A model generated the notes under the pieces. That model was not told the origin of the DNA and did no database searches. It saw only the letters and a program-made list of their open reading frames with translations. This document shows, in pieces, positions 727 to 17,985 of a stretch of DNA of 60,788 nucleotides. Source of the DNA: Aequorivita xiaoshiensis (lineage in GTDB: Bacteria; Bacteroidota; Bacteroidia; Flavobacteriales; Flavobacteriaceae); the NCBI RefSeq assembly GCF_022008395.1, contig NZ_JAIRBB010000014.1, positions 1 through 60,788 on the forward strand, given 5' to 3'. Positions within the stretch are counted from its first letter, which is position 1, and every line of letters starts with the position of its first letter. Both the position numbers and the translations under genes were made by a program.

Positions 727-1107
727 AAATACTTTACTGGGTGGTAAAATTTTTGTATTTGGTTAGAATCTTATTGCTGTCCCTGGCGTTGCTATTATGG
801 AAGGCCTAATCAGTTACAAAAAAAATCAATTAAATATTCTTAGGCTTAGTTTTAAGTAAGCGATTTGTTATTCTGCTATAACCACAGTATAATTCACATA
901 AATCAAATCATTTTCATATTTAATTGAACTGCCTACCTCATTTCGATTAAAGCTTGAAAAACTGCTGTTTACTCAACAATTAGTTTAAGGCTAAATTATT
1001 ATTGATGCAAACTATGACCTGTAGGTTTTAATTTCCAATTTTGTTTCCACGCTATATTTATTATATTTAATAATCCAATACATTAATCTCCTCCACAATT
1101 TTTAGTT
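727..1107. other. Intergenic, nothing recognised
   Basis: AT-rich stretch between the repeat array and the helicase gene. It holds the decayed edge of a sixth repeat (GGGTGGT near 739-745), but I see no tRNA, terminator hairpin or coding frame. No clear TAnnTTTG promoter box could be assigned to the downstream gene. Confidence 0.5.
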
Positions 1108-3567
1108 ATGATTGAAAATCCTGAAATCGATCTGGCTTGGAACTTCGTCAATTATACCGATAGGAATATTTTTCTGACCGGGAAAGCAGGGACTGGAAAA
1201 ACTACGTTTCTACATAGGTTAAAAACGGGTTCCTTAAAGAGGATGGCAGTTGTTGCACCTACCGGAGTGGCGGCTATCAACGCAGGAGGGGTAACTATTC
1301 ATTCTTTTTTTCAGTTGCCATTTGGGCCCATATTACCCGAGTCTGCAAATACGCAAGACAATTCTTTCTCTAAAAAATTCAGTAAAAAGAAAATCAATAT
1401 TATTAAGTCTTTAGATTTGTTGGTTATAGATGAAGTAAGTATGGTGCGAGCTGATTTACTCGATGGAATAGACCAAGTTTTGCGTAGGTTTAGAGATAGA
1501 AGCAAACCCTTTGGTGGCGCCCAACTTTTAATGATTGGTGACTTGCAACAGCTTTCGCCAGTAATTAAAAATGATGAATGGCAGCTTTTAAAACAATACT
1601 ACAGCACAGGATTTTTTTTTGGAAGCAATTCTTTTCAGAACTCGAATACGCTTACCATTGAATTGAAACACATCTACAGACAAGAAAGTGAAGATTTTAT
1701 AACAATATTGAACGAAATTAGAAATAATTCCTTGACTCACGAATCTTCCGAAATACTCAACAAACAGTATATTCCCGAGTTTTCGGCACATAATGGCGCT
1801 GGGTATATCACTTTGACCACCCATAACAATAGAGCCGACAGAATTAATGCTGCAGAACTGAAAAAGCTGAAAACGAAAAGCTTTATTTACGACGCAGAAA
1901 TAGATGGAAAGTTTCCCGAATATACCTATCCCACTCATTCGGAGCTGGAACTCAAGATAGGTGCGCAAGTTATGTTCGTTAAAAATGACAGCTCTCCGGA
2001 AAAGCGTTATTTCAATGGAAAGATTGGGACTGTGGTCGATTTAGACGAAGGTGAAGTGCTAGTGCGATGTCCCGATGATAAATTTGATATTGTAACCAGC
2101 CCAGAAATATGGAAGAATATTCAATATTCCATAAATCCAAAGACAAAAGAAATAATGGAAGATGAAATTGGTTCATTTACACAAATTCCGCTGCGTTTGG
2201 CTTGGGCTATAACTATTCATAAAAGTCAGGGGCTCACTTTTGAAAAAGTAATTATCGATGCCCAAGAAGCCTTCGCCCACGGACAAACCTATGTAGCTTT
2301 AAGCCGATGCAAAACTTTGGAAGGGATAGTTTTAACTGGTCCGCTCTTCCAAAAAAGTATTATCAACAATCGTGAAGTCGCTTCCTTTAACAAAAATGCC
2401 GAAGAGAACCAGCCAGATTCTTCTATTTTGGAAACTTCGCAGATAGTATATCAACTTAATTTGATTAACGAAATTTTTAATTTCCATTCTTTTCTACAAC
2501 CGGTTAGTAGAATTATAGATATATGCTTTATAAATAAAGGCAGCATTAGCGGAAATTTATTCGATCAATTAACCATTTTAAAAGAAAAAGGTGTGACCGA
2601 ACTTTTAAAAGTTAATACGAAATTCCAAATTCAAATAAAAAACTTAAGTGAACACGAGGCTCCAGAAAATAATGTTATACTACAGGAACGCTTCAAAAAA
2701 GCGGTTTTTTATTTTGAAAAGCACCTAGAAAATTTTATTGTACAACCTTTAGCTAATTTAAATTTTGCAACAGATAATAAAGCAATTAAAGAAGATATTA
2801 CAAATCAGCTTAATAATTTGGAAGAATTGATAGCTGTAAAACAATATTGCTTTAAAGGTTTAAAAAAAGGTTTCAATACCTCAAAATACCTTGATTTACG
2901 GGCTAAAGCTGCACTACAAGAAGTAGAAATACCAAAACGGAAAAACGCCGACTTTATCCCTTCAATTGAAAATAATCAATTATTTGAATTTCTGCGAGAA
3001 CTGCGCACCAAGTTTTCGGAAGAAGAAGCTATTCCGCCCTATCAAGTTTTTACCCAAAAAGCGCTTTTTGAAATGTGCGAAGTATTACCAACAAACGTAA
3101 AGCAATTGCGACAAATTTCCGATATCGGAAAAGTTAGACTTAAAAAATACGGTGCTGCAATCCTGGAGGTAATTAATCAATACTGTGAAGATAACGCAAT
3201 AACCATAAATAAGGAAACCAAATTGGTTCCTAGAAAAAGCGAAACACAGAATATCTCCTTCAAATTATTCAAATCGGGTATGAGCGTTGCTGAAATTGCT
3301 AAAGAACGAGGTTTTACAATGGGCACTATTGAAGGGCATCTCAGCACTTTTCTTGCTACGGGTGAAATTAAAATTACCGAATTAATGCCTGTGGAAAAAT
3401 ATCTTGAACTCAAAAAAATAATGGAAACCGAAGACTACAAGGGTTTCGGCGATTTAAAAAGCAAAATTGACGATAAATTCACTTATGGTGACTTACGAAT
3501 GGTTGCCAATGTACTTCAGCTCAAGAAAGGCGCGAAATCTCAAGCCAATTCATCTAAAGTAAATTAA
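1108..3567 (+). CDS. PIF1-like DNA helicase with HRDC and helix-turn-helix tail
   Basis: Probable ATP-dependent 5'-3' DNA helicase of the PIF1/RecD-like superfamily 1. Visible motifs are Walker A GKAGTGKTT (residues 25-33), PTGVAA (51-56), Walker B DEVSM (108-112), GDLQQL (144-149), HKSQG (371-375) and YVALSR (395-400). The last ~200 residues look like an HRDC nucleic-acid-binding domain (about 640-705) followed by a helix-turn-helix of the type often fused to Bacteroidota helicases (about 715-775). At 819 aa it is complete. It starts with ATG without a Shine-Dalgarno. The last codons overlap the convergent ZIP gene by 4 bp. The role (replication-fork or recombination maintenance) is inferred from family. 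Confidence 0.9.
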   Translation: MIENPEIDLAWNFVNYTDRNIFLTGKAGTGKTTFLHRLKTGSLKRMAVVAPTGVAAINAGGVTIHSFFQLPFGPILPESANTQDNSFSKKFSKKKINIIKSLDLLVIDEVSMVRADLLDGIDQVLRRFRDRSKPFGGAQLLMIGDLQQLSPVIKNDEWQLLKQYYSTGFFFGSNSFQNSNTLTIELKHIYRQESEDFITILNEIRNNSLTHESSEILNKQYIPEFSAHNGAGYITLTTHNNRADRINAAELKKLKTKSFIYDAEIDGKFPEYTYPTHSELELKIGAQVMFVKNDSSPEKRYFNGKIGTVVDLDEGEVLVRCPDDKFDIVTSPEIWKNIQYSINPKTKEIMEDEIGSFTQIPLRLAWAITIHKSQGLTFEKVIIDAQEAFAHGQTYVALSRCKTLEGIVLTGPLFQKSIINNREVASFNKNAEENQPDSSILETSQIVYQLNLINEIFNFHSFLQPVSRIIDICFINKGSISGNLFDQLTILKEKGVTELLKVNTKFQIQIKNLSEHEAPENNVILQERFKKAVFYFEKHLENFIVQPLANLNFATDNKAIKEDITNQLNNLEELIAVKQYCFKGLKKGFNTSKYLDLRAKAALQEVEIPKRKNADFIPSIENNQLFEFLRELRTKFSEEEAIPPYQVFTQKALFEMCEVLPTNVKQLRQISDIGKVRLKKYGAAILEVINQYCEDNAITINKETKLVPRKSETQNISFKLFKSGMSVAEIAKERGFTMGTIEGHLSTFLATGEIKITELMPVEKYLELKKIMETEDYKGFGDLKSKIDDKFTYGDLRMVANVLQLKKGAKSQANSSKVN

Positions 3568-4232
3568 ATAAAATAAGCAATGATCACAGCTAGGATAACT
3601 GCTGTCATTTTAGAGAGATTGAACTTATGGTTTTTAGAACTTTCAAAAAGTATTGTTGTTGAAACGTGTAAAAAGATTCCGATTACTATTGCTGTTATTG
3701 GCGTTTCGTATTGATGAAAGAAGTCATAATGAGTCGAAAGATAGTTTCCTAGAGGTGTCATTAAGGCAAAAAAGAATAAGAATAACAATGTAGTCGATTT
3801 TCGATACCCAGCGGTTATAAAAAAGAAGGATAGTATGATGGCGACAGGCACCTTATGAATAATAATAGCTGTTAGTAAATTGTTTTCTTCCGAGATAGGA
3901 AAACCTTCCATAAAGGCATGTATGCCCAAACTTATAAAGAGTATCCAAGGAAAATGTTTGTTTTCTGAATGTAGATGAATGTGTCCGTGTTCGGCCCCCT
4001 TAGAAAAAAACTCTAGAAATATTTGCAAGAGTATTCCGAGCATTATATATACTCCAATACTTTTAGAATGGTCTTCAAATACGTGTGGTAACAATTCAAA
4101 AACTGTTATAGATAATAGAAATCCACCGCTAAAGGCTAGAAAAACTTCCATATTGCGCATTTCTTTTTTCTTTAAAAAAAGTGCGACTATGTAACCTATT
4201 ACTACGGCTAAAAAAAGTAAAATATAATTCAT
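3564..4232 (-). CDS. ZIP family divalent metal transporter
   Basis: 222-residue integral membrane protein with about eight hydrophobic segments. It has the family-defining TM4 and TM5 motifs: HAFMEG (residues 105-110) and HKVPV (126-130). A His-rich loop, EHGHIHLH (81-88), lies between TM3 and TM4, as is usual for the variable metal-binding loop. ZIP proteins move Zn2+, Fe2+ or Mn2+ into the cytoplasm; the specific metal cannot be told. The start codon overlaps the stop of the upstream methyltransferase (TAATG), so the two are probably one translationally coupled transcript. Confidence 0.88.
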   Translation of the reverse strand: MNYILLFLAVVIGYIVALFLKKKEMRNMEVFLAFSGGFLLSITVFELLPHVFEDHSKSIGVYIMLGILLQIFLEFFSKGAEHGHIHLHSENKHFPWILFISLGIHAFMEGFPISEENNLLTAIIIHKVPVAIILSFFFITAGYRKSTTLLFLFFFALMTPLGNYLSTHYDFFHQYETPITAIVIGIFLHVSTTILFESSKNHKFNLSKMTAVILAVIIAYFI

Positions 4233-4963
4233 TAGTTAAAAATCAGGATTAATCTTTCTGAGGTGTTTTCATCAAATTTATTGAGTTTGTAATCTCCAAA
4301 TACTGCTTTTAACGTTACTCCAGCCTTCTCAAAGTAGTCTTTAAAGCCTTCCAATCTTAATGCTTTTACTCTTTCAGTAAAACAATAGTCATCTCCTTCA
4401 TCATTAAATCGGATATTTTTTATGATATAACCATCTTCAACATATTTTTCAATATCAAATAAGATTCCACCAACTTCTTTTTTTTCTGAAGGAACTAATT
4501 TTTTTATAGCTAATTCGACATTTAAAAAATCTATAACCCCATATCCGTTTGGTTTTAATTCAGATTTAATTGCTTTAATTGTCCTTAAGTTATCTTCTTC
4601 TTTTTCAAAATAACCAAAACTTGTATAAAGATTAAATACAGCGTCAAATTTTTTTGGAAATGGTAAACACATATCGTGGACTTCAAATTGGAGTCTAGGT
4701 TTTTCGTATTGTTTGGCATAAGCAATACTTTCTTCAGAAAGATCTACTCCTGTTACATTAAATCCTTGTCGGTATAAATATTTTGAATGTCTGCCCTTTC
4801 CACAGGCAAGATCTAGAATACTGTCGTTCTCTTTTAATTTTAAATAATTAGTGAGCGTGTTCATAAACAACGCCGCTTCTCTGTGGTCTCTATCTTTGTA
4901 GAGAATATGGTAATAAGGCGTGTTAAACCAGGAAGCGTACCAATTGTTTTTTTCTTTTTGCAT
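4232..4963 (-). CDS. Class I SAM-dependent methyltransferase
   Basis: 243 aa with a standard Rossmann methyltransferase core: motif I DLACGKGRH (residues 51-59), the acidic end of strand 2 in GVDLS (72-76), and a VHDMCLPF motif further on. The N-terminal SWFNTPYYHILY pattern is common in small Bacteroidota methyltransferases of unknown substrate. It overlaps the ZIP transporter by one base. It is divergent from the RlmL gene with only 58 bp between. The substrate is unknown; no restriction partner is nearby. Confidence 0.85.
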   Translation of the reverse strand: MQKEKNNWYASWFNTPYYHILYKDRDHREAALFMNTLTNYLKLKENDSILDLACGKGRHSKYLYRQGFNVTGVDLSEESIAYAKQYEKPRLQFEVHDMCLPFPKKFDAVFNLYTSFGYFEKEEDNLRTIKAIKSELKPNGYGVIDFLNVELAIKKLVPSEKKEVGGILFDIEKYVEDGYIIKNIRFNDEGDDYCFTERVKALRLEGFKDYFEKAGVTLKAVFGDYKLNKFDENTSERLILIFN

Positions 4964-4992
4964 AGTTATCGTTTCGCACTGCTAAAATACTG

Positions 4993-5000
4993 TATTTTTG
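4993..5000 (+). promoter_or_regulatory. -7 promoter box for the RlmL-like gene
   Basis: TATTTTTG matches the Bacteroidota -7 consensus TAnnTTTG and sits 22 bp before the ATG. No TTG lies at the usual -33 distance. Confidence 0.55.
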
Positions 5001-5021
5001 CAGTAAAACTGATTATATATT

Positions 5022-6179
5022 ATGGTAAAGAATTTTAAAATGGTAGCTAAGACCCTTTTCGGGATGGAAGAGCTACTGGCTCAGGAACTTCGTCAATTAG
5101 GAGCGTCTTCGATTGAATTAGGGACCCGAAATGTTTCCTTTGAAGGAGACACTGGCTTTATGTATAAAGCAAACTTATGCTGCCGTACTGCAATTAAAAT
5201 TCTGAAGCCAATTACAGCCTTTAATATTTTCACAGAAGAAGATTTATATAAAAAAGTCTATGAGATGCCCTGGGAAAACTATATGGACGTAAAAGGTTCA
5301 TTAGCAGTGAATGCTACTGTTTTTTCAGATGTATTTACACATTCTCAATATATCGCTTTAAAGACAAAAGATGCTATTGTAGATCGTTTTCGCGATAGGG
5401 AAGGAGTTAGGCCAGATGTGGATTTAGACCACCCTACTTTACGTATAAATGTACATATAGATCGTAATATCTGTACTATTTCACTAGATAGTTCTGGAGA
5501 ATCATTACACAAACGTGGTTATAAAGTAGAAAGTACTCTTGCCCCAATAAATGAAGTTTTAGCTGCAGGTATTTTAATGTTATCTGGTTGGCAAGGGCAG
5601 TGTGACTTTTTAGATCCAATGTGTGGGAGTGGCACTATGTTGACTGAAGCTGCATTGATAGCGTGTAATATTCCACCAAATCTAAATCGTGAGGAATTTG
5701 GTTTCGAAACTTGGCCAGATTTTGATATAGATTTATATGAGAAAATAGAAGAAGCAGCTCTTAAAAAAGTTCGTGATTTCCCTCATAAAATTTATGGTTT
5801 CGATTCTGATCCTGTTGCTGTTCATAAAGCTAAGGAGAATATAAAAAGTGCAAATCTTCAAGAATTTATTGAGGTAAGACAACAAGATTTTTTTGAAAGT
5901 AAAAAGCAAGGCGAAAAGTCGTTGTATATGGTTTTCAACCCACCGTATGATGAAAGAATATCTGTAAATGATATTCGGGAGTTTTATAGCTCTATTGGGA
6001 ATACATTAAAGCGTGGGTATCCTGGGACTCAGGCTTGGATGATAACTTCAAATATGGAAGCGCTTAAATTTGTTGGACTTCGACCTTCAAGAAAAATTAA
6101 ATTGTTCAACGGAAAATTAGAATCCAAACTTGTGCGATACGAAATGTATGAAGGAAGTAGAAAAGCGTCTAAGCAATAA
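5022..6179 (+). CDS. rlmL: THUMP-domain 23S rRNA methyltransferase, RlmL (m2G2445) type
   Basis: 385 aa. The N-terminal half (about 45-155) is a THUMP RNA-binding region. The C-terminal half is an N2-guanine methyltransferase with motif I DPMCGSGT (198-205) and catalytic motif IV NPPYDERI (306-313). This matches the RlmL half of the E. coli RlmKL fusion; the RlmK half is absent, as usual in Bacteroidota. It acts in the cytoplasm on 23S rRNA during ribosome assembly. It is monocistronic, with a -7 box upstream and a terminator hairpin about 150 bp downstream. Confidence 0.9.
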   Translation: MVKNFKMVAKTLFGMEELLAQELRQLGASSIELGTRNVSFEGDTGFMYKANLCCRTAIKILKPITAFNIFTEEDLYKKVYEMPWENYMDVKGSLAVNATVFSDVFTHSQYIALKTKDAIVDRFRDREGVRPDVDLDHPTLRINVHIDRNICTISLDSSGESLHKRGYKVESTLAPINEVLAAGILMLSGWQGQCDFLDPMCGSGTMLTEAALIACNIPPNLNREEFGFETWPDFDIDLYEKIEEAALKKVRDFPHKIYGFDSDPVAVHKAKENIKSANLQEFIEVRQQDFFESKKQGEKSLYMVFNPPYDERISVNDIREFYSSIGNTLKRGYPGTQAWMITSNMEALKFVGLRPSRKIKLFNGKLESKLVRYEMYEGSRKASKQ

Positions 6180-6722
6180 AATTTAAGATTAATCTCCTAT
6201 TCAAGAAAATTTTCCTCTAAAAAATTAGTCTATTTCTAAAATATCGCCTTGGTGATTAATCGTGAAATCGGTTATCGGCCTAGTAATAAGTTGATGATTG
6301 AAATTTCTATTGAATGCACTTTGCGAATCACTTCTTTGCTATGACTGAAAAGTGATTTTTTTACTTTACAAAATACTTTGCTATATCGGCAAAGGCACAT
6401 CAAACTGGCTCAACTATTATCTTGGATTTTAGGTATAGTATAAAGCTTAAAAAACCTATATATGCCGCTATAACTACATTGCCACTGAAGCGAATTATTA
6501 TGGAACTGGTTTCCTTGTATATTGAGAAAAACATAATTTATTCTTGTATTATTAAATAATAAATTGTATTTATGCAATATCATTACGAGTTTCTTAATTG
6601 AAACAGCAACCTGCCTAAACAGGCGAAGGTGCTAAAACGATGAGCCAGTCCGGGAAAAATATGTTATCCTACACATTTCATTTGTTTTTTTGTAATGGTT
6701 TAATTTTTTAATTAAATCTATT
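6180..6722. other. Intergenic region with terminator and a structured element
   Basis: 543 bp without a convincing gene. It contains an intrinsic terminator (6326-6362) and a nested hairpin at 6606-6632: inner arms GCCT-AAAC-AGGC, outer arms GCAACCT/AGGTGC with small bulges. The hairpin has no U-tract, so it is not a terminator. No TAnnTTTG box could be fixed for the gene at 6723. Confidence 0.5.
6326..6362 (+). terminator. Intrinsic terminator downstream of rlmL
   Basis: Perfect 8-bp arms AATCACTT (6326-6333) and AAGTGATT (6350-6357) are followed directly by a T tract. The loop of 16 nt is large. Confidence 0.6.
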
Positions 6723-7370
6723 ATGGAACATCTTATATTAAGCATAAAGGAGAGAGAACTGCATATCTCAAACTTCTTAGAAGTTTTTAAAACCTTGTGT
6801 GACGAGGAACTTATAGGAGCCTACAAAAATGCACTTAAAACCAACACAGGTGGCGAGCACCTTCAGGGTTTACGTATACAAGCTATGCGTAAAGCAATTT
6901 TCAGGAGATTAAATAAAACACCAGTTGATTTTAAAGATACCGTTTTAAGCACTAACGAAAACTCTGATATTCCAAATTTAAGTGTAGAAATAAAAGATCC
7001 AAAAATTCAAATCGTCAAGGAGATAAAGAAAAAATTTACTACAAAAACAGATACTGAGTCTCAGGTAATTGTTCATATCGATTCGGGGCCATATCGCGAT
7101 AGCCAAAGATTGCGAATTTGGGATAACACTTATCTAAAATGTAAGCAAACTGCAAGAACGTCTAAGTTGCTTTTTAGTGAAAATATTGCAATATACCCTA
7201 AATGGAGTTTTGTTGCATCTGGTACGATTTTCTCGTTTACCCTAATCTTCGAAAACCTTCCTAAAGAATGTCTCTCTTTTGATTTAATTGAAAATATACC
7301 AGAAATGGGTGGATTCTTTTTTAAAGGAATAAGGAGGAACAATCCGAACGTTTATCACTTACGGATGTAG
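6723..7370 (+). CDS. Uncharacterised protein, first gene of accessory island
   Basis: I do not recognise this 215-residue protein. It has no signal peptide or membrane segment and is basic and mixed alpha/beta. Residues about 20-65 form a helical stretch with LCDEELIGAY and many Arg/Lys. A linker and a beta-rich C-terminal half follow, ending in a PEMGGFFFKGIRRN segment. A similar DxxLIxxxN...R helical stretch recurs at the C-terminus of the protein at 7949-8725. The gene stands in front of a decayed coding remnant and the sirtuin operon, and is probably part of a horizontally variable island (inference). Confidence 0.72.
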   Translation: MEHLILSIKERELHISNFLEVFKTLCDEELIGAYKNALKTNTGGEHLQGLRIQAMRKAIFRRLNKTPVDFKDTVLSTNENSDIPNLSVEIKDPKIQIVKEIKKKFTTKTDTESQVIVHIDSGPYRDSQRLRIWDNTYLKCKQTARTSKLLFSENIAIYPKWSFVASGTIFSFTLIFENLPKECLSFDLIENIPEMGGFFFKGIRRNNPNVYHLRM

Positions 7371-9792: not shown

Positions 9793-9804
9793 CTAAGTGA
9801 TCAG

Positions 9805-10200
9805 TGGAGCCGGGGAGATTCGAACTCCCGTCCAAACGTGCAACCATAATGCTTTCTACATGCTTAGTTTTCAATTAGGTTTTCGAGAGATTGCCGGTCG
9901 AAAACTACCAACGCACTCCTTATCTTTACTTGAGTTTCACGATGCCATCAAAGCACTAACATCGCTAGGTTTACTTTTACGAAGCCACTAAATCAACCGC
10001 CGTAAACCAAGGCCGTTGAGTGACTTCCTGCTTGCCCACCTTGTGGGCCGAGGCACATCCTACTATGATTCAGATTATGCAGCTAGGGCGTAGTTATTCT
10101 CGCCGTTTAAAAAGTGTGAAATATGATATTTACGAGCTATATCCCAGCGCTCGGCATGCTTACAATACAATTAGACCCGCTGTCAAAACCAGTCGGCCCC
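9805..10200 (-). ncRNA. ssrA: Transfer-messenger RNA (tmRNA), trans-translation
   Basis: 396-nt one-piece tmRNA that rescues stalled ribosomes and adds a degradation tag. The 5' end GGGGCCGACT (10200 downward) pairs with the 3' end CGGCTCC-A, giving a 7-bp acceptor stem with one G-U pair; the terminal CCA is encoded. The T-arm GGGAGTTCGAATCTCC is near the 3' end. The early GGTTTTGACAGCGGGT block is typical of tmRNA. The tag frame at 10104-10075 ends GENNYALAA-stop, like tags in other Bacteroidota. SmpB is not in the window. Transcription likely starts from a -7 box about 90 bp upstream, so the 5' end is probably processed. Confidence 0.97.
10075..10104 (-). other. tmRNA proteolysis-tag reading frame
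   Basis: Codons GGC GAG AAT AAC TAC GCC CTA GCT GCA TAA encode GENNYALAA followed by a stop. The hydrophobic ALAA end is the expected ClpXP/Lon signal. The resume codon is taken as GGC; the AAC before it could only matter if the register were shifted. Confidence 0.9.
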
Positions 10201-12430: not shown

Positions 12431-14401
12431 TCAAATTCTTTTTAAGTGAATGGGCTCTTCGTTTTGAACTTTAATTAATTCAGTAAAAAATTCTTGTAGA
12501 GATTTATAAGCTTCTGGAGCAAAACTTGGATTGTTCAGTTTTACACTAAGTCGGATATTTATTTTACTCCCTGAAACATCGTATACCACTGAAAACTCGC
12601 CATCGTTTTCTGGAAGTTTTAGAATCTTATTGGCAGGAACTTTTTCAATTTTATATTGATCATTTACATCTATAGCTATTAAGTAGTTGTTCATTACCGG
12701 AAAACCAAAATCTATAGGGTAAATTCTTTCTTTTTTCACAAAAGGATTTTCACCAAAATAGGTTTCCATTAAAAACGGATATAGATAAAGATTATCTGCT
12801 ATTGGCTGTTCGTGAAGCACTAAATTAAAGGTCTCTTTGTACGGCTTGTCTAGGTCTTTTTCATTTTCAATTTTAAGATCGGAAATCTCCAAGCTTTCAT
12901 TTCTACTTTGTTTCTTTCTGTCGATTATATCTTTTCTGTAATCGTTGTACTCTTTCCGTTCTACAACCGATACATATCCCGTAGAAACTTGACTTGCTTT
13001 CCCAGTGAATAATCCAGATTCGTCTGCAGTAAGTTGCATATTTACATAATGTAGATTTTTGTTAAAAGGAATGATGTTTTCCCAATAACTACCTTTGTTA
13101 AAGTCCATTAAACGTCCTTCTGTACTAAGGGCGCGAAAGGGTAAGACGCCAAAGGGCGTGAATTTGTCTGTTGCGTCTAGAAAGTACTTGTTACCTTGAA
13201 TTTCTAAAACTACAATTGCATAAATAAAATCGGCAATTACAGGGTATTGTTTTGTAGGAAGGGCGTATTCTCGGGTAGAAATAAGCATTGTATTCACATT
13301 CAGACCTGCTGCATCAAGGGCGTTGTATAGAGCGAAATTAATCTCATGACTGTTTCCAGATTTTTCATTAAATGCATCTTTTACGCGTACGTCTTCCGAG
13401 TACCCATATCGTCCATTCCAATTCATATTACTTTGAATGTAGTAATAAATGTCTTTTGCTTTTTCAACCTTATCTTGCTTTGATAATAACGAAGCTGGAA
13501 GTTCATTTTTAAAGAACTTAGAATATTTAAGTTGTCGCCCGTAATTTTTATCGTATTGAAAATGTTTATCTACATCTTTCCATTCGTTGGTATATCGGTG
13601 AACAGTTCGATTAAAGTCTACAAATTCAATAAGCTCGTATTTCATGCTAGCTAAATAGTTGTCGGGAGAAAGCATAAACTTTTCCTCTTTTACGGCTGGT
13701 ACATTTATCATAGCGTAAGTCGCTTTTTCACAATCGGCGTGAACATCAAAGCCTTCAATAGAGAAACAGGCTTTAGATTTAATTGCGTCGTTAATATATA
13801 AAGGTAGATTTCCGTAAAGCGTTCTATTGTATTTAAAATTACCAGGAATGTCGGTATACAGTTCTACATATAATTTTGGAAGTGGTCCTTGAAATTTCCA
13901 ACCTCGAATATTTGAAAAATAAGTAGATTCTACTCGGTAGGTATATTCTAAAATACTACCGTTCTGTATGTTTGGGAAAGTAAATTTTTTAATCGACCAT
14001 TTGGGGGTTTCATCTGTAGTAAAAATATCCTTATCACTCACAAATGTCTTTACAGCACCATTATGGGTTATCGCGGTAATTTTAGTGACTTTTTCACTGT
14101 TATTTTTTTTGTTGTAAAATGGTATTCTTACTGTCGCTTGATCGAATTTGCTAATATCAAACACTTTTGTCTTTACGTGAACCTCTTTAATTAGTTTCAC
14201 TTGATTATCCACTAGTTCTACATAATTTTTAGCGCTTTCAAAAAGAACAACTCCAGCTGCTTCAGGATCTTGATTATACGAATTTATTTTGAAGTCTTCG
14301 GAAGTAGGTTCGCCAAACACCGCAGTTTTTCGTGATTGTGAAAATGTAAAAGTAAAAACAAATAAAAATAAAATTAGGATACTGTGTTTGAAGTAAAGCA
14401 T
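12431..14401 (-). CDS. Secreted DUF3857/transglutaminase-like protein
   Basis: 656 aa with a signal peptide (hydrophobic residues about 5-20, ending FSQS). The N-terminal half is a DUF3857 domain (VFDISKFDQATVRIPFY region). The C-terminal half is a transglutaminase-like core. The usual catalytic Cys position is occupied by other residues (KSGNSHEINFALYNAL), so it is probably not an active transglutaminase. DATDKFTPFGVLPFRA follows as the conserved strand. It probably acts in the periplasm or on the cell surface. The paralogue just upstream is 26 bp away on the same strand; the pair is probably one operon. Exact role unknown. Confidence 0.85.
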   Translation of the reverse strand: MLYFKHSILILFLFVFTFTFSQSRKTAVFGEPTSEDFKINSYNQDPEAAGVVLFESAKNYVELVDNQVKLIKEVHVKTKVFDISKFDQATVRIPFYNKKNNSEKVTKITAITHNGAVKTFVSDKDIFTTDETPKWSIKKFTFPNIQNGSILEYTYRVESTYFSNIRGWKFQGPLPKLYVELYTDIPGNFKYNRTLYGNLPLYINDAIKSKACFSIEGFDVHADCEKATYAMINVPAVKEEKFMLSPDNYLASMKYELIEFVDFNRTVHRYTNEWKDVDKHFQYDKNYGRQLKYSKFFKNELPASLLSKQDKVEKAKDIYYYIQSNMNWNGRYGYSEDVRVKDAFNEKSGNSHEINFALYNALDAAGLNVNTMLISTREYALPTKQYPVIADFIYAIVVLEIQGNKYFLDATDKFTPFGVLPFRALSTEGRLMDFNKGSYWENIIPFNKNLHYVNMQLTADESGLFTGKASQVSTGYVSVVERKEYNDYRKDIIDRKKQSRNESLEISDLKIENEKDLDKPYKETFNLVLHEQPIADNLYLYPFLMETYFGENPFVKKERIYPIDFGFPVMNNYLIAIDVNDQYKIEKVPANKILKLPENDGEFSVVYDVSGSKINIRLSVKLNNPSFAPEAYKSLQEFFTELIKVQNEEPIHLKRI

Positions 14402-14426
14402 ATTGGTATTATAAGGAATGGTTGGA

Positions 14427-16397
14427 TTATATTTTTTTTAAAATTATAGGTTCATCTTTCAGCATGGTAACCATAGTGCCAAAAAATTCTTTGAGGGCTG
14501 GGTATGCTTCGGGAGCATAACGATATGAATTTAATTTCATATTAAAACGAATATTCACTTTGTTGCCATCAGCTATATAGGTTACAGAACATTCACCATC
14601 ATCACCTTGCAGTTTTATGCTTCTACTATCTGGAAGATGTTCAACTTTATATTTATCGTCTAAATCTATTGATACCAAATAAGTATTAGTAAACGGAAAC
14701 CCAAAGTCTATGGGGTAATTTCGCTTATTCAAATTAAATGGGTTTTTAGAAATATAAGTTTTATTGAAAAAAGGATGAAGTATTACTTTGTCGCCTATTA
14801 TTTCAGGTTCAACAGTTACCTCATAGTTTTCTTTAAGCGGTTTCTCAATATTATAAAGCTCCTCTATTTGAAAGTTTTCGACCTCAATTCCAGCGCTTTT
14901 ATTTTCTTGAGTTTTTATGTATTGTTGTAGCGTTGCTTTTTCAATTGTATTTCGTTTTTCAAATCCTATATAACCATAATTAGCCTGATTTACTACTCCT
15001 TTAAAATGTCCGTTTGTATCGGCTAAAATTTTTGAATGTGCAAATAGAATGTTTTTATTATAAGGCTTTATAGGCATCCAATAACTGCCTTTGTTAAAGT
15101 CCATTACCCTACCGTGTATATTAAGAGCGCGAAAAGGAATTATACCAAAAGGTGCTTGTTTATTTGTAGCGTCTAATAATATAAACTCATCGTTTATCAT
15201 CAGTACTGAGATCACATAGTTAAAATTTGAAAGGATTGGATAAACTTTTGTAGGTAAGCCATTTTTACGTGTGGACAATAACACAGGTTTAGCTTTAAGG
15301 CCGGCGGCTTCTAAGGCATTTACTAAAGATAAATTTATAGCAGATACACTTCCTAATTTATCTTTGAAAGCTTCTTTTACGTTTACATTATAGTTAAAGT
15401 ACTGTTCATTCCAAGTGTATTCATTTTGAATAAATCTATATACAGCTTTAGCCCGTTCTAGTTCGTTTTCAATATTTAAAATATCTTTTGGTAATTTTCT
15501 TCTAAAATAGTTTTTTCGCACAAGTTGATCACCAAAATCCTCGTCCTCTTTAAATAGCTTATCTATATCATTCCAATTTCGGGTAAAAACTTGTTTTTTC
15601 CATTCAACATTAAAACTCTTAAATGATACAGGTTCGTAAACTATTCTTGAAACGTAATTTTTTTTTCCAAGCATATAGTCTTCTTCGCTAAAAGAGGGAA
15701 TATTCTCCATTGAGAATAAGTGAACTTCAGAATCAACTCTCCTATCATCTGGAAGCTTAAAACCATTTTTTTTAAGGGCTGTGTTGTTAATTACTAATTT
15801 CTGATCACCATATAATATACGGTTATACTTAAAATTGACAGGAATTACTGTTTGAAATAAACTATAAATTGTAGGTAATTCATGTTGAAATTCCCACCCA
15901 TTAAGATCATAAAAAAACGGACTTAATTTGGTGTATTTGTATTCTAAAATACTTCCATCTTGAACATTTGGAAAGGTAAATTTTAATGATTTTCTGGTAT
16001 TCGACTCCTCTACGGTAAAGAATGCACTTTCGGGGACATGGCTTTGGTTGGTGCCATTGTGCGTTATAGCTTCATATTCTAAAACTTCTTCTTTATACCT
16101 GCCATTTCCTTCATAATAGGAAATAGTTACATCGGAATAATCAAATTTTTTAGCATTAAAAACTTTAATCTTTCTATAAACTTCTTTAACTAAATAAATA
16201 CGAATACCGACAGACTTAGCGTAATAATTTCCCGATTCATATAAAATTGCACCTGGAGAATCAGGTTCAGGATCATATTTATTTATTGCAAAATCATGAC
16301 TAGTGGGTTCTCCAAATTTTTTATAACGTGGACTTTGAGCGTGCAAGGAATAAAAGGTTAGAAGTAAAACTAGAAAAAAGATCTTTTCAGATTTCAT
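14427..16397 (-). CDS. Secreted DUF3857/transglutaminase-like protein, paralogue
   Basis: About 656 aa from the second Met (MKSEKIFFLVLLL), which starts a clean signal peptide ending HAQS; the frame is open 9 codons further (to 16424) but that would spoil the signal. Same domain order as the next gene downstream: FGEPTSHDF opening, DUF3857, pseudo-transglutaminase (KLGSVSAINLSLVNAL, no Cys), DATNKQAPFGIIPFRA. The two proteins align over their full length, so this is a tandem duplication. It is the first gene of the pair. Its own -7 box was not found with confidence. Confidence 0.85.
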   Translation of the reverse strand: MKSEKIFFLVLLLTFYSLHAQSPRYKKFGEPTSHDFAINKYDPEPDSPGAILYESGNYYAKSVGIRIYLVKEVYRKIKVFNAKKFDYSDVTISYYEGNGRYKEEVLEYEAITHNGTNQSHVPESAFFTVEESNTRKSLKFTFPNVQDGSILEYKYTKLSPFFYDLNGWEFQHELPTIYSLFQTVIPVNFKYNRILYGDQKLVINNTALKKNGFKLPDDRRVDSEVHLFSMENIPSFSEEDYMLGKKNYVSRIVYEPVSFKSFNVEWKKQVFTRNWNDIDKLFKEDEDFGDQLVRKNYFRRKLPKDILNIENELERAKAVYRFIQNEYTWNEQYFNYNVNVKEAFKDKLGSVSAINLSLVNALEAAGLKAKPVLLSTRKNGLPTKVYPILSNFNYVISVLMINDEFILLDATNKQAPFGIIPFRALNIHGRVMDFNKGSYWMPIKPYNKNILFAHSKILADTNGHFKGVVNQANYGYIGFEKRNTIEKATLQQYIKTQENKSAGIEVENFQIEELYNIEKPLKENYEVTVEPEIIGDKVILHPFFNKTYISKNPFNLNKRNYPIDFGFPFTNTYLVSIDLDDKYKVEHLPDSRSIKLQGDDGECSVTYIADGNKVNIRFNMKLNSYRYAPEAYPALKEFFGTMVTMLKDEPIILKKI

Positions 16398-16617
16398 AAA
16401 ATAAAAAACAGATATCCTTCGCAAAATAAAATATTTATTACTCCTACAAAACTTTTAAAGTGGTTTTAAGGGAAAAAGGAAGTATTAATAAGTAGTGACC
16501 AAAATTATATACATCATACTTTCGTAAATGCTTTTTTTGTATTAAAAGGTTTAGTTAGGGGTTTAGGATCAGGGAATTACACATGTTTTATAAAAAACTC
16601 TCATTTTTTTAAAAATT

Positions 16618-16662
16618 GGGGGATTTCCCCCTTGTAGCGCGTTTACAAAAGTTACATCTTTG
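16618..16662 (+). promoter_or_regulatory. Promoter of small-RNA-like unit 1 with palindromic operator
   Basis: Perfect palindrome GGGGG-ATTT-CCCCC (16618-16631) runs straight into TTG (16632-16634). After 20 bp comes CATCTTTG (16655-16662), one mismatch from TAnnTTTG. The TTG-N20-box layout is that of Bacteroidota promoters, and the palindrome sits where an activator or repressor could touch RNA polymerase. Confidence 0.6.
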
Positions 16663-16665
16663 CAT

Positions 16666-16740
16666 CACTAGACATTAATTGGGGAGTTAATATGTAGTAT
16701 TCTAAAAAAAAGGTTGTCTTTAATAGACAGCCTTTTTTAT
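16666..16740 (+). ncRNA. Candidate small RNA, unit 1
   Basis: Predicted ~70-75 nt transcript with no usable reading frame. It begins with a hairpin (arms ACAT..TAA 16672-16678 and TTA..ATGT 16687-16695, loop TTGGGGAG 16679-16686). It ends in the terminator at 16710-16740. Unit 2 (16956-17112) has the same order of parts with changed but still pairing outer-stem bases. No known RNA family is recognised. Confidence 0.5.
16710..16740 (+). terminator. Terminator of unit 1
   Basis: Arms AAGGTTGTCT (16710-16719) and AGACAGCCTT (16725-16734), 10 bp with one G-U pair, then a T-rich tail. Confidence 0.75.
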
Positions 16741-16906
16741 TTTAAAGGAGTGTTTGGTTGCTTAAGGAAAGTAGGTCAGTAACAATTCTATCTGAGTGAA
16801 TTGCTTAAATATTATTCTTCTTTTTTATACCTAACTAGTGAAACAGCCATCTTTCGTTAGAGTTTTTTATTAAAATATTGAAAATCAGGGGTTAGTTGTA
16901 AATTTA

Positions 16907-16952
16907 GGGGGATTTACCTCTTGTTTTGTATGTGTAATTAAACTGATATTTG
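16907..16952 (+). promoter_or_regulatory. Promoter of small-RNA-like unit 2
   Basis: GGGGGATTTACCTC (16907-16920) is a half-kept version of the unit 1 palindrome, again placed directly before TTG (16921-16923). After 21 bp comes GATATTTG (16945-16952), one mismatch from TAnnTTTG. Confidence 0.55.
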
Positions 16953-16955
16953 AAT

Positions 16956-17112
16956 ACTTATTTAATTGGGGAGTTAATAAGTAAAATATCTAAACTCTTA
17001 TAGCTTAATTGTTATTTAGAATTGGATATAAAATGTAAGAGTCTTTTTTATAAGGATTTTTAGCCAAAAGTGCCCTACCAATTTGAGGAGATGGTAGGGC
17101 ACTTTATTTTAT
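16956..17112 (+). ncRNA. Candidate small RNA, unit 2
   Basis: Predicted ~155-nt transcript. The 5' hairpin has arms ACTTATTTAA (16956-16965) and TTAATAAGT (16974-16982) around the same TTGGGGAG loop (16966-16973) as unit 1. The region between the hairpin and the terminator has no good open frame. It ends in a 13-bp terminator stem. The shared operator, promoter, loop and terminator order with unit 1 suggests a duplicated RNA gene. Confidence 0.5.
17067..17112 (+). terminator. Strong terminator, possibly bidirectional
   Basis: Perfect 13-bp arms AAAGTGCCCTACC (17067-17079) and GGTAGGGCACTTT (17093-17105), then ATTTTATTT on the plus strand. It lies 60 bp beyond the end of kdsA on the other strand, where four T's follow the stem, so it may also stop kdsA transcription. 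Confidence 0.85.
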
Positions 17113-17166
17113 TTATAAATTATGTATAGCTTCTACAATCAATCCTTATTTTAAATAGGAGTACAG

Positions 17167-17985
17167 TTACAGTTGGTTAATTGTTTTTCTAATCGCTACA
17201 AGATCTGATAGTAGTTTTTCAAGTAAATTTAGATTTAACATATTGGCACCATCGCTTTTTGCATTTGCAGGATCGAAGTGGGTTTCAATAAATATCCCAT
17301 CTACGCCAGTTGCAACTCCAGCCTTTGCAATTGTAGAAATCATTTCTGGGCGTCCACCTGTAACTCCAGCCGATTGATTTGGTTGCTGTAAACTGTGAGT
17401 CACATCTAAAACTACTGGCGCGTATTGTTTCATAGTAGGAATGCCTCTAAAGTCCACAATCATATCCTGATAACCAAACATTGTTCCGCGGTCGGTAATT
17501 AGTACTTGCTGGTTATTAGAATCTGTAACTTTAGTAACCGCGTGCTTCATGCTTTCAGGACTCATAAATTGTCCTTTCTTCAAATTCACAACTTTTCCTG
17601 TATTAGCAGCAGCCACAACTAAGTCTGTTTGACGAACCAAAAATGCAGGGATTTGCAATACATCAACATATTCCGCAGCCATTGCTGCATCACTTACTTC
17701 GTGAATATCGGTAACTGTTGGTACATTAAAAGTGTTGGATACTTTTTTGAGAATCTTTAATGCTTTTTCGTCGCCAATTCCTGTAAAGCTATCAATCCTA
17801 CTTCGGTTTGCTTTTTTAAAACTACCCTTAAAAATGAAAGGAATTTCAAGCGTGTCGGTAATTTTTACAATTTTTTCAGCAATCTGCATTGCCATCTCTT
17901 CACCTTCAATAGCACAAGGTCCTGCAAGTAAGAAAAAATTGTTGGAATTGAGGTGTTTTATATGGGGGATTAATTCGAGTTTCAT
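17167..17985 (-). CDS. kdsA: 3-deoxy-8-phosphooctulonate (KDO-8-P) synthase
   Basis: 272 aa. Condenses phosphoenolpyruvate with arabinose 5-phosphate to make KDO-8-P for the lipopolysaccharide inner core; cytoplasmic. Family signatures are visible: LAGPCAIEGEE near residue 21, the IPFIFKGSFKKANRS segment, GTMFGYQDM, and the terminal IETHFDPANAKSDGANM. Full length. A near-consensus TATCTTTA box lies just before the start on the minus strand. It stands alone, divergent from typA. Confidence 0.96.
   Translation of the reverse strand: MKLELIPHIKHLNSNNFFLLAGPCAIEGEEMAMQIAEKIVKITDTLEIPFIFKGSFKKANRSRIDSFTGIGDEKALKILKKVSNTFNVPTVTDIHEVSDAAMAAEYVDVLQIPAFLVRQTDLVVAAANTGKVVNLKKGQFMSPESMKHAVTKVTDSNNQQVLITDRGTMFGYQDMIVDFRGIPTMKQYAPVVLDVTHSLQQPNQSAGVTGGRPEMISTIAKAGVATGVDGIFIETHFDPANAKSDGANMLNLNLLEKLLSDLVAIRKTINQL

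Follow-up and report, generated by a model that had tools for sequence, protein, structure and literature searches.

A predicted family of regulated, tandem small RNA genes near kdsA in Aequorivita and related Flavobacteriaceae

To our knowledge, few small RNA (sRNA) families have been described for marine Flavobacteriaceae; literature searches found no report that joins kdsA, an sRNA and Flavobacteriia, and none on sRNAs of Aequorivita. GsrN of Caulobacter is said to be encoded by a single gene and to expose a C-rich loop. The units described here would resemble this regulated sRNA (PMC5869019) in exposing a loop dominated by one base, but their loop is of the opposite base type and the bacteria are unrelated. 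Within the family, extracts of the paper on Rfp18 and the other Rfp RNAs of Flavobacterium psychrophilum present these as stand-alone RNAs, many of them condition-dependent. Rfp18 is structured, its pairing region is the third stem-loop, and stationary-phase cells that have lost it contain less mRNA of two metalloproteases; the same extracts do not mention kdsA (PMC9723704). Compared by description alone, the units are like the Rfp RNAs in being putative stand-alone RNAs of Flavobacteriaceae (PMC9723704, extracts). They differ from Rfp18 in that R2, the wider of two covariance models, matched none of the family genomes sampled from genera other than 12 (E 0.001, among the best candidates scored). 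Sibling sRNAs in general, according to extracts of a further paper, are several highly related sRNAs per genome (PMC4211561). The units likewise occur in 1–4 copies per genome, with an operator common to 60 of 67 units; unlike sibling sRNAs generally, they have as their common module a hairpin whose loop is mostly GGGG, and they are clustered at one conserved locus. They are structured, as are the bacterial RNAs in Rfam 15, but neither the units nor 8 related loci match any of its 4227 families at gathering score, and all 25 matches obtained down to E 10 in 16400–17200 lie far under their gathering scores.

The window, i.e. the whole 60,788-nucleotide stretch that was analysed, belongs to the 3.06-Mb genome of Aequorivita xiaoshiensis. 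Two short units lie in it between a DUF3857/transglutaminase-like gene (14427–16424, minus strand) and a conserved, convergent neighbour (17167–17985, minus strand; Pfam DAHP_synth_1), which from its sequence would be kdsA and toward whose 3' end both units point. As the original prediction had it, no reading frame fits them: the list of open reading frames (ORFs) contains none of ≥40 aa anywhere between 16425 and 17166, and a coding reading of the units was rejected on that ground. The other side of the locus is occupied by two adjacent, similar long ORFs of 656 and 665 aa (12431–16424, minus strand), apparently a tandem pair, the second of which has DUF3857/transglutaminase-like Pfam matches scoring just under the cut-off. 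Elsewhere the window carries a SAM-I/IV riboswitch match above gathering score (6575–6670, plus strand) and a tmRNA gene (9802–10200, minus strand) with the tag GENNYALAA.

Both units are read from the plus strand and have the proposed order of operator, TTG, spacer, -7-like box and hairpin. In unit 1, the operator is the palindrome GGGGGATTTCCCCC (16618–16631), of the [AG]GG-N6-CC[CT] class that was counted on 67 units. It abuts the -33 element TTG (16632–16634), and after a 20-nt spacer comes the -7 element CATCTTTG (16655–16662), which we take to be of the Bacteroidota TAnnTTTG type. The predicted sRNA 1, of type A, would be about 73 nt long (16666–16738, the 5' end being assumed from the -7 box). 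Its hairpin, ATTAATT/GGGG/AGTTAAT (16674–16691), is drawn from folding, arm swap and covariation, and it is followed by an intrinsic terminator, AGGTTGTCT...AGACAGCCT with a T run (16711–16738, stem 16711–16733). Unit 2 has the operator GGGGGATTTACCTC (16907–16920), TTG (16921–16923), a 21-nt spacer, the -7 element GATATTTG (16945–16952) and the hairpin ACTTAT...GGGG...ATAAGT (16956–16982), the last drawn from folding and arm swap. An intrinsic terminator had been claimed for each unit; that of unit 1 stands, whereas for unit 2 the terminator scan found no compact one within 95 nt of the loop. Two candidates are left for unit 2, namely a long-armed stem seen by eye before the T run 17044–17049, and a 14-bp inverted repeat (17067–17105, assigned to neither strand) that is also at the 3' end of kdsA. 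The predicted sRNA 2, of type C, would be about 94 nt long with the first end (16956–17049) and about 150 nt with the second, and the inverted repeat is perhaps a shared bidirectional terminator for read-through from unit 2 and for kdsA.

Direct repeats D1 and D2 were detected mechanically at spacings of 289 and 287. The likeness of the units is no accident: the hairpin 17-mer TTAATTGGGGAGTTAAT has exact matches at these two units only in the whole 3.06-Mb genome. So does operator plus TTG at ≤1 mismatch; at ≤3 mismatches there are 22 matches vs 23 in the control, i.e. equal numbers. No second operator copy, and thus no operator pair, was found in the window, so its two units carry the proximal copy only. 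The window holds types A and C; type B, the middle one of many relatives, is absent.

How far does this arrangement extend? DNA searches placed the locus in most members of the genus. kdsA adjoins the units in 20 of 20 genus loci, and of the 28 genus genomes 26 have a unit no farther than about 1.5 kb from kdsA, one of these units being diverged. A genus locus has up to three paralogous types (typed by eye) in the fixed order A, B, C. The original prediction had suggested a covariance-model search, and such searches bear out a family. R1, a model built from 46 genus units (alignment A1), matches 27 of the 28 genus genomes. The unit of genome G026 is diverged; G003 has two hits, one of which precedes a gene for a protein of ~160 aa, not an sRNA, and the other is without assignment; G007, 69% complete, gave no R1 match. 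Non-genus DNA matches were mostly terminator sequence and were set aside in favour of the model searches. R1 matches at least 20 of 199 genomes of the family; nine of the 20 do so at E >0.001 only, and seven of the nine lack the hairpin core and are therefore probably chance matches. With the wider model R2, at E 0.001, matches are found in at least 22 of 397 family genomes and at least 12 of 237 genera (at least 11 of 236 besides Aequorivita), and order-wide in at least 2 of 296 genomes, both Flavobacteriaceae; all these family and order counts are lower bounds, since the best 11–21 of some 1,000–7,000 first-look candidates per genome were scored. Copy number reaches four in G112 and G327. 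Outside the genus, 19 regions were fetched; kdsA is present in 16 of them, at most about 4.3 kb away from the closest unit, and absent from three, one of which is just 8 kb long. Close relatives that keep the surroundings also keep the hairpin, whose loss there had been proposed as a test.

The hairpin itself differs in one respect from what was first proposed. An eight-base loop, TTGGGGAG, is ruled out by folding: the minimum-energy folds have a GGGG tetraloop (16681–16684 in unit 1, 16968–16971 in unit 2) closed by AATT/AGTT, and the outer letters of TTGGGGAG form U-A and U.G pairs of the stem. Of these two loop-side pairs, the inner is U-A in the 46 genus units, whose outer pair is U.G in 42 cases and C-G in 4; the presence of GGGG in all 46 is by construction, because the units were picked with a TTGGGGAG-like pattern. 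Among hits of the models, which were themselves built on TTGGGGAG-picked units, the loop [CT]T-GGGG-A is present in 51 of 58 on the kdsA contigs of the genus and in 30 of 34 from outside it; the remaining hits have GAGG, GGGA or other loops, or diverged sequence.

Outer stems differ between types and genera with complementarity kept: CACTA/TAGTG in type A, ACTTAT/ATAAGT in type C, GCTT/AAGC in most other genera, and CTTTAT/ATAAAG (G002) and GATTTT/AAAATC (G167) in single genomes. Selection on RNA structure, which had been proposed from the two units of the window, is borne out by arm-swap tests, pair counts and compensatory change. In the alignment-free arm-swap test, the 5' arms of 61 units were paired with 3' arms of other units, and the mean energy was -6.84 kcal/mol for native and -4.28 kcal/mol for swapped pairings, with 60 of the 61 units beating their median swap. 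None of 20,000 permutations was as low as the native mean, and with 17 representatives none of 50,000 reached it (15 of 17 units beat the median swap), counts that are no true or independent probabilities because the units are related. On a MAFFT alignment of 33 sequences (A2), 84% of cells pair, two-sided changes occur in 7 of 11 pairs, and the covariation score is 0.175 vs 0.112 in shuffled alignments, the native value being reached by 0 of 500 shuffles and by none of the slid registers (0.065–0.092). Further pair types do not stand out in number (15 vs 13.2, reached in 81 of 500 shuffles), and the outer helix pairs in just 65% of A2 cells because the register differs between types. Overall, selection on the hairpin pairing is supported by these comparisons of predicted folds.

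The promoter and its surroundings were likewise compared in silico. TTG is invariant and the TT of the -7 box is conserved in the 46 genus units, and the promoter of most units is of the Bacteroidota type. The palindrome [AG]GG-N6-CC[CT] stands directly upstream of TTG in the 60 of 67 distinct units already mentioned (shuffles, mean 0.18), and a second copy 20–25 bp farther upstream in 54 of the 67 (shuffles, mean 0); both counts lean upward because the 21 units outside A1 were pre-filtered for a CTCTTG-like motif, which favours the last letters of the palindrome, and because the models include the operator. A terminator-like structure follows 58 of 64 units (shuffled mean 1.15), unit 2 of the window being among the six misses, and the predicted RNA length in most units is about 70 nt. 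Might the units be no RNA genes at all, but DNA sites (an operator array with a downstream element) or promoter-proximal attenuators of another gene? Protein genes do share the operator and promoter, as described below. However, compensatory arms act at the RNA level, terminators follow the units at the frequency just given, and kdsA is convergent in the window; such a reading is very improbable.

Comparison with the sister species G023 adds a view of unit 1 base by base. Operator 1 keeps 26 of 28 bases, the -33/-7 spacer 10 of 18, the stretch from the -7 box to the hairpin end 42 of 47 and terminator 1 all 31 of 31, while in the 127 bases upstream 45 match, 25 of the remainder being gaps from the end of the piece compared. 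This pattern is the footprint of a putative promoter and structured RNA. At unit 2 no footprint is readable in G023, because all parts there are 91–100% alike.

Regulated, tandem sRNA genes at the window locus, as judged from sequence, are strongly supported. The original view of a duplicated, regulated sRNA gene is upheld by the selection on structure and by synteny with kdsA in 26 of 28 genus genomes, and our verdict is that the units represent a new, predicted family of regulated, tandem sRNAs near kdsA. The best explanation as a whole, to which a probability of roughly 0.65 is given, is that of tandem sibling sRNA genes under the control of an activator, with the hairpin as the working part. 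Units 1 and 2 would then be types A and C of the family. An activator at the operator, whose centre is near -42 if the assumed start is right, would switch on all copies together, and the same activator may also turn on other genes with the same operator. The hairpin would be the working part of the sRNA, since it is the linker and the terminator that vary from copy to copy and from genus to genus.

Do the linkers nevertheless matter? The siblings could pair through their own linkers with their own targets, the hairpin merely shielding the 5' end. The linker changes with the type (A, B or C) but is similar in orthologous units, e.g. GAGGTTAA in several B and C units, as this would require. Between genera, however, the linkers look unlike; moreover, if structure alone were selected, one would not expect the letters of the inner stem and the loop to stay constant across genera, a constancy that is partly a selection effect. 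Linker pairing is thus regarded as doubtful.

If the hairpin is the working part, what does it act on? The original prediction pointed to CUCCCC in target RNAs, and this was not supported. The complement AACTCCCCAATT, at ≤1 mismatch, has 25 sites in the window's genome, two of them the units, vs 20 in the reversed control. One of the 23 non-unit sites precedes an ORF of ≥90 aa by ≤150 nt (it starts 21 nt before the ATG of a 207-aa ORF), and another was seen by eye directly before a 60-aa ORF. Genus-wide sums are 940 vs 452 in the control, units included, an excess without full explanation. Among 30 genus loci fetched, 17 have an exact site outside recognized units: four are leader copies of one gene family, one is without an ORF, and 12 are antisense to (7) or inside (5) coding sequence. 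CUCCCC as a general target was set aside on these grounds, the sites in the window's genome being about as common as in the control and the exact genus sites in the loci fetched mostly antisense or coding. The exact 12-mer also occurs early in a coding sequence, taken by eye for a putative TonB receptor, of G013 and G004 (L207, L220) and of G112 (L268); the 12-mer there is noted, not established. In 19 non-genus carriers it is found at scattered places, ten of which were inspected. CUCCCC is likewise found in the tmRNA of the window and, for E. coli, in 23S and 5S rRNA, a proxy check that was not built upon.

The best candidate leader belongs to a secreted PGAP1-like hydrolase, with the exact site beginning 39–40 nt upstream of the ATG in five of five orthologues (L222–L225 and L249), whose first codons contain a run of 9–12 C. 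Read from that ATG, the frame stays open throughout in just one of the five, the others stopping after 10–11 or 109 codons, so that the gene is either phase-variable or decaying; the window's genome gave no match to it. Conservation covers the entire leader, not the site alone. Depending on which of three G004 sRNAs is used, the duplex energy is reached by 4–12 of 43 background leaders and by 22–70 of 200 shuffles. This energy is unremarkable, and the leader as a possible target stays a lead.

The lack of enrichment of complementary sites in the window's genome is a point for a different role, in which the hairpin is a protein-binding site and the 1–4 tandem copies titrate, as decoy or scaffold, an RNA-binding protein that recognizes AAUU-GGGG-AGUU. 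CsrB-type RNAs titrate CsrA in this manner. The constancy of the hairpin between genera, the retention of the U.G pair in the stem (30 of 33, otherwise C-G) and the several copies per genome also suit a protein ligand; one site per RNA of about 70 nt does not suit it, as the CsrB layout has many sites. Titration of a protein is therefore rated a possible but rather unlikely function. Given the G-rich loop and the weakness of the inner stem, antisense pairing that begins at the loop has a slight edge over a protein decoy. The most likely mode of action, at about even odds, is that the weak AAUU-GGGG-AGUU module makes its first contact with C-rich mRNAs through the loop and pairs with them from there.

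The operator also lies before other genes. Searched for across the genus, CCCTGTANNANNNTGGGGGANTTCCC has 38 matches, part of them the sRNA units, spread over 20 of 28 genomes; the reversed control has 4. In the window's genome, CCCTGTANNANNNTGGGGGANTTCCC occurs at two places (G000:C32:44846 and G000:C32:134626), each upstream of a gene for a secreted-looking protein, within upstream stretches of ~100 bp that are 84% alike and have the same operator architecture; in the one of the two proteins that was run against Pfam, a Por_Secre_tail type IX sorting domain was detected. Elsewhere in Aequorivita, a CTCTTGACTGGTAT-like promoter block often follows the operator, and a block like CAGGGTTTTTCCTCTTGACTGGTAT is also present upstream of genes other than those for the sRNAs. 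One gene so preceded encodes a lipoprotein-like protein with an HExxH motif, seen by eye. In G024 (contig C7, 1–9000), several AGG-N6-CCT palindromes resembling those of the sRNA units form an array in front of a contractile-injection operon with Pvc16_N, sheath, gp19-like tube, baseplate V and gp25 genes. The same double operator also precedes genes for a ~160-aa protein family present in multiple copies (MANLSENR/MSNVNQNLLNQ) and seen at nine loci; two members, together with two other proteins, gave no significant Pfam or NCBIfam family, and the same two members no PHROGs family. A literature search found nothing on an operator regulon with a contractile injection system and type IX cargo. 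That one activator serves the sRNA units and all other operator-bearing genes is suggested by the operator alone.

Taken together, these observations allow a joint reading, which is tentative and, on balance, unlikely in its full form. An activator acting on tandem AGG-N6-CCT palindromes would couple the sibling sRNAs to outward-facing machinery (the contractile injection operon, type IX-secreted proteins and the multicopy 160-aa proteins) in Aequorivita and relatives, and the nearly self-complementary AAUU-GGGG-AGUU hairpins would act as loop-first antisense on C-rich leaders, e.g. that of the poly-C hydrolase. If true, transcriptional and post-transcriptional control would converge on the same output. 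Because the kdsA neighbourhood is fixed, the promoter code clear and the conserved hairpin compact, expression, activator and targets are directly testable. The sRNA family is perhaps switched on together with secretion genes, and if the shared operator is real, it would be an entry point to a regulon with a contractile injection system and type IX cargo.
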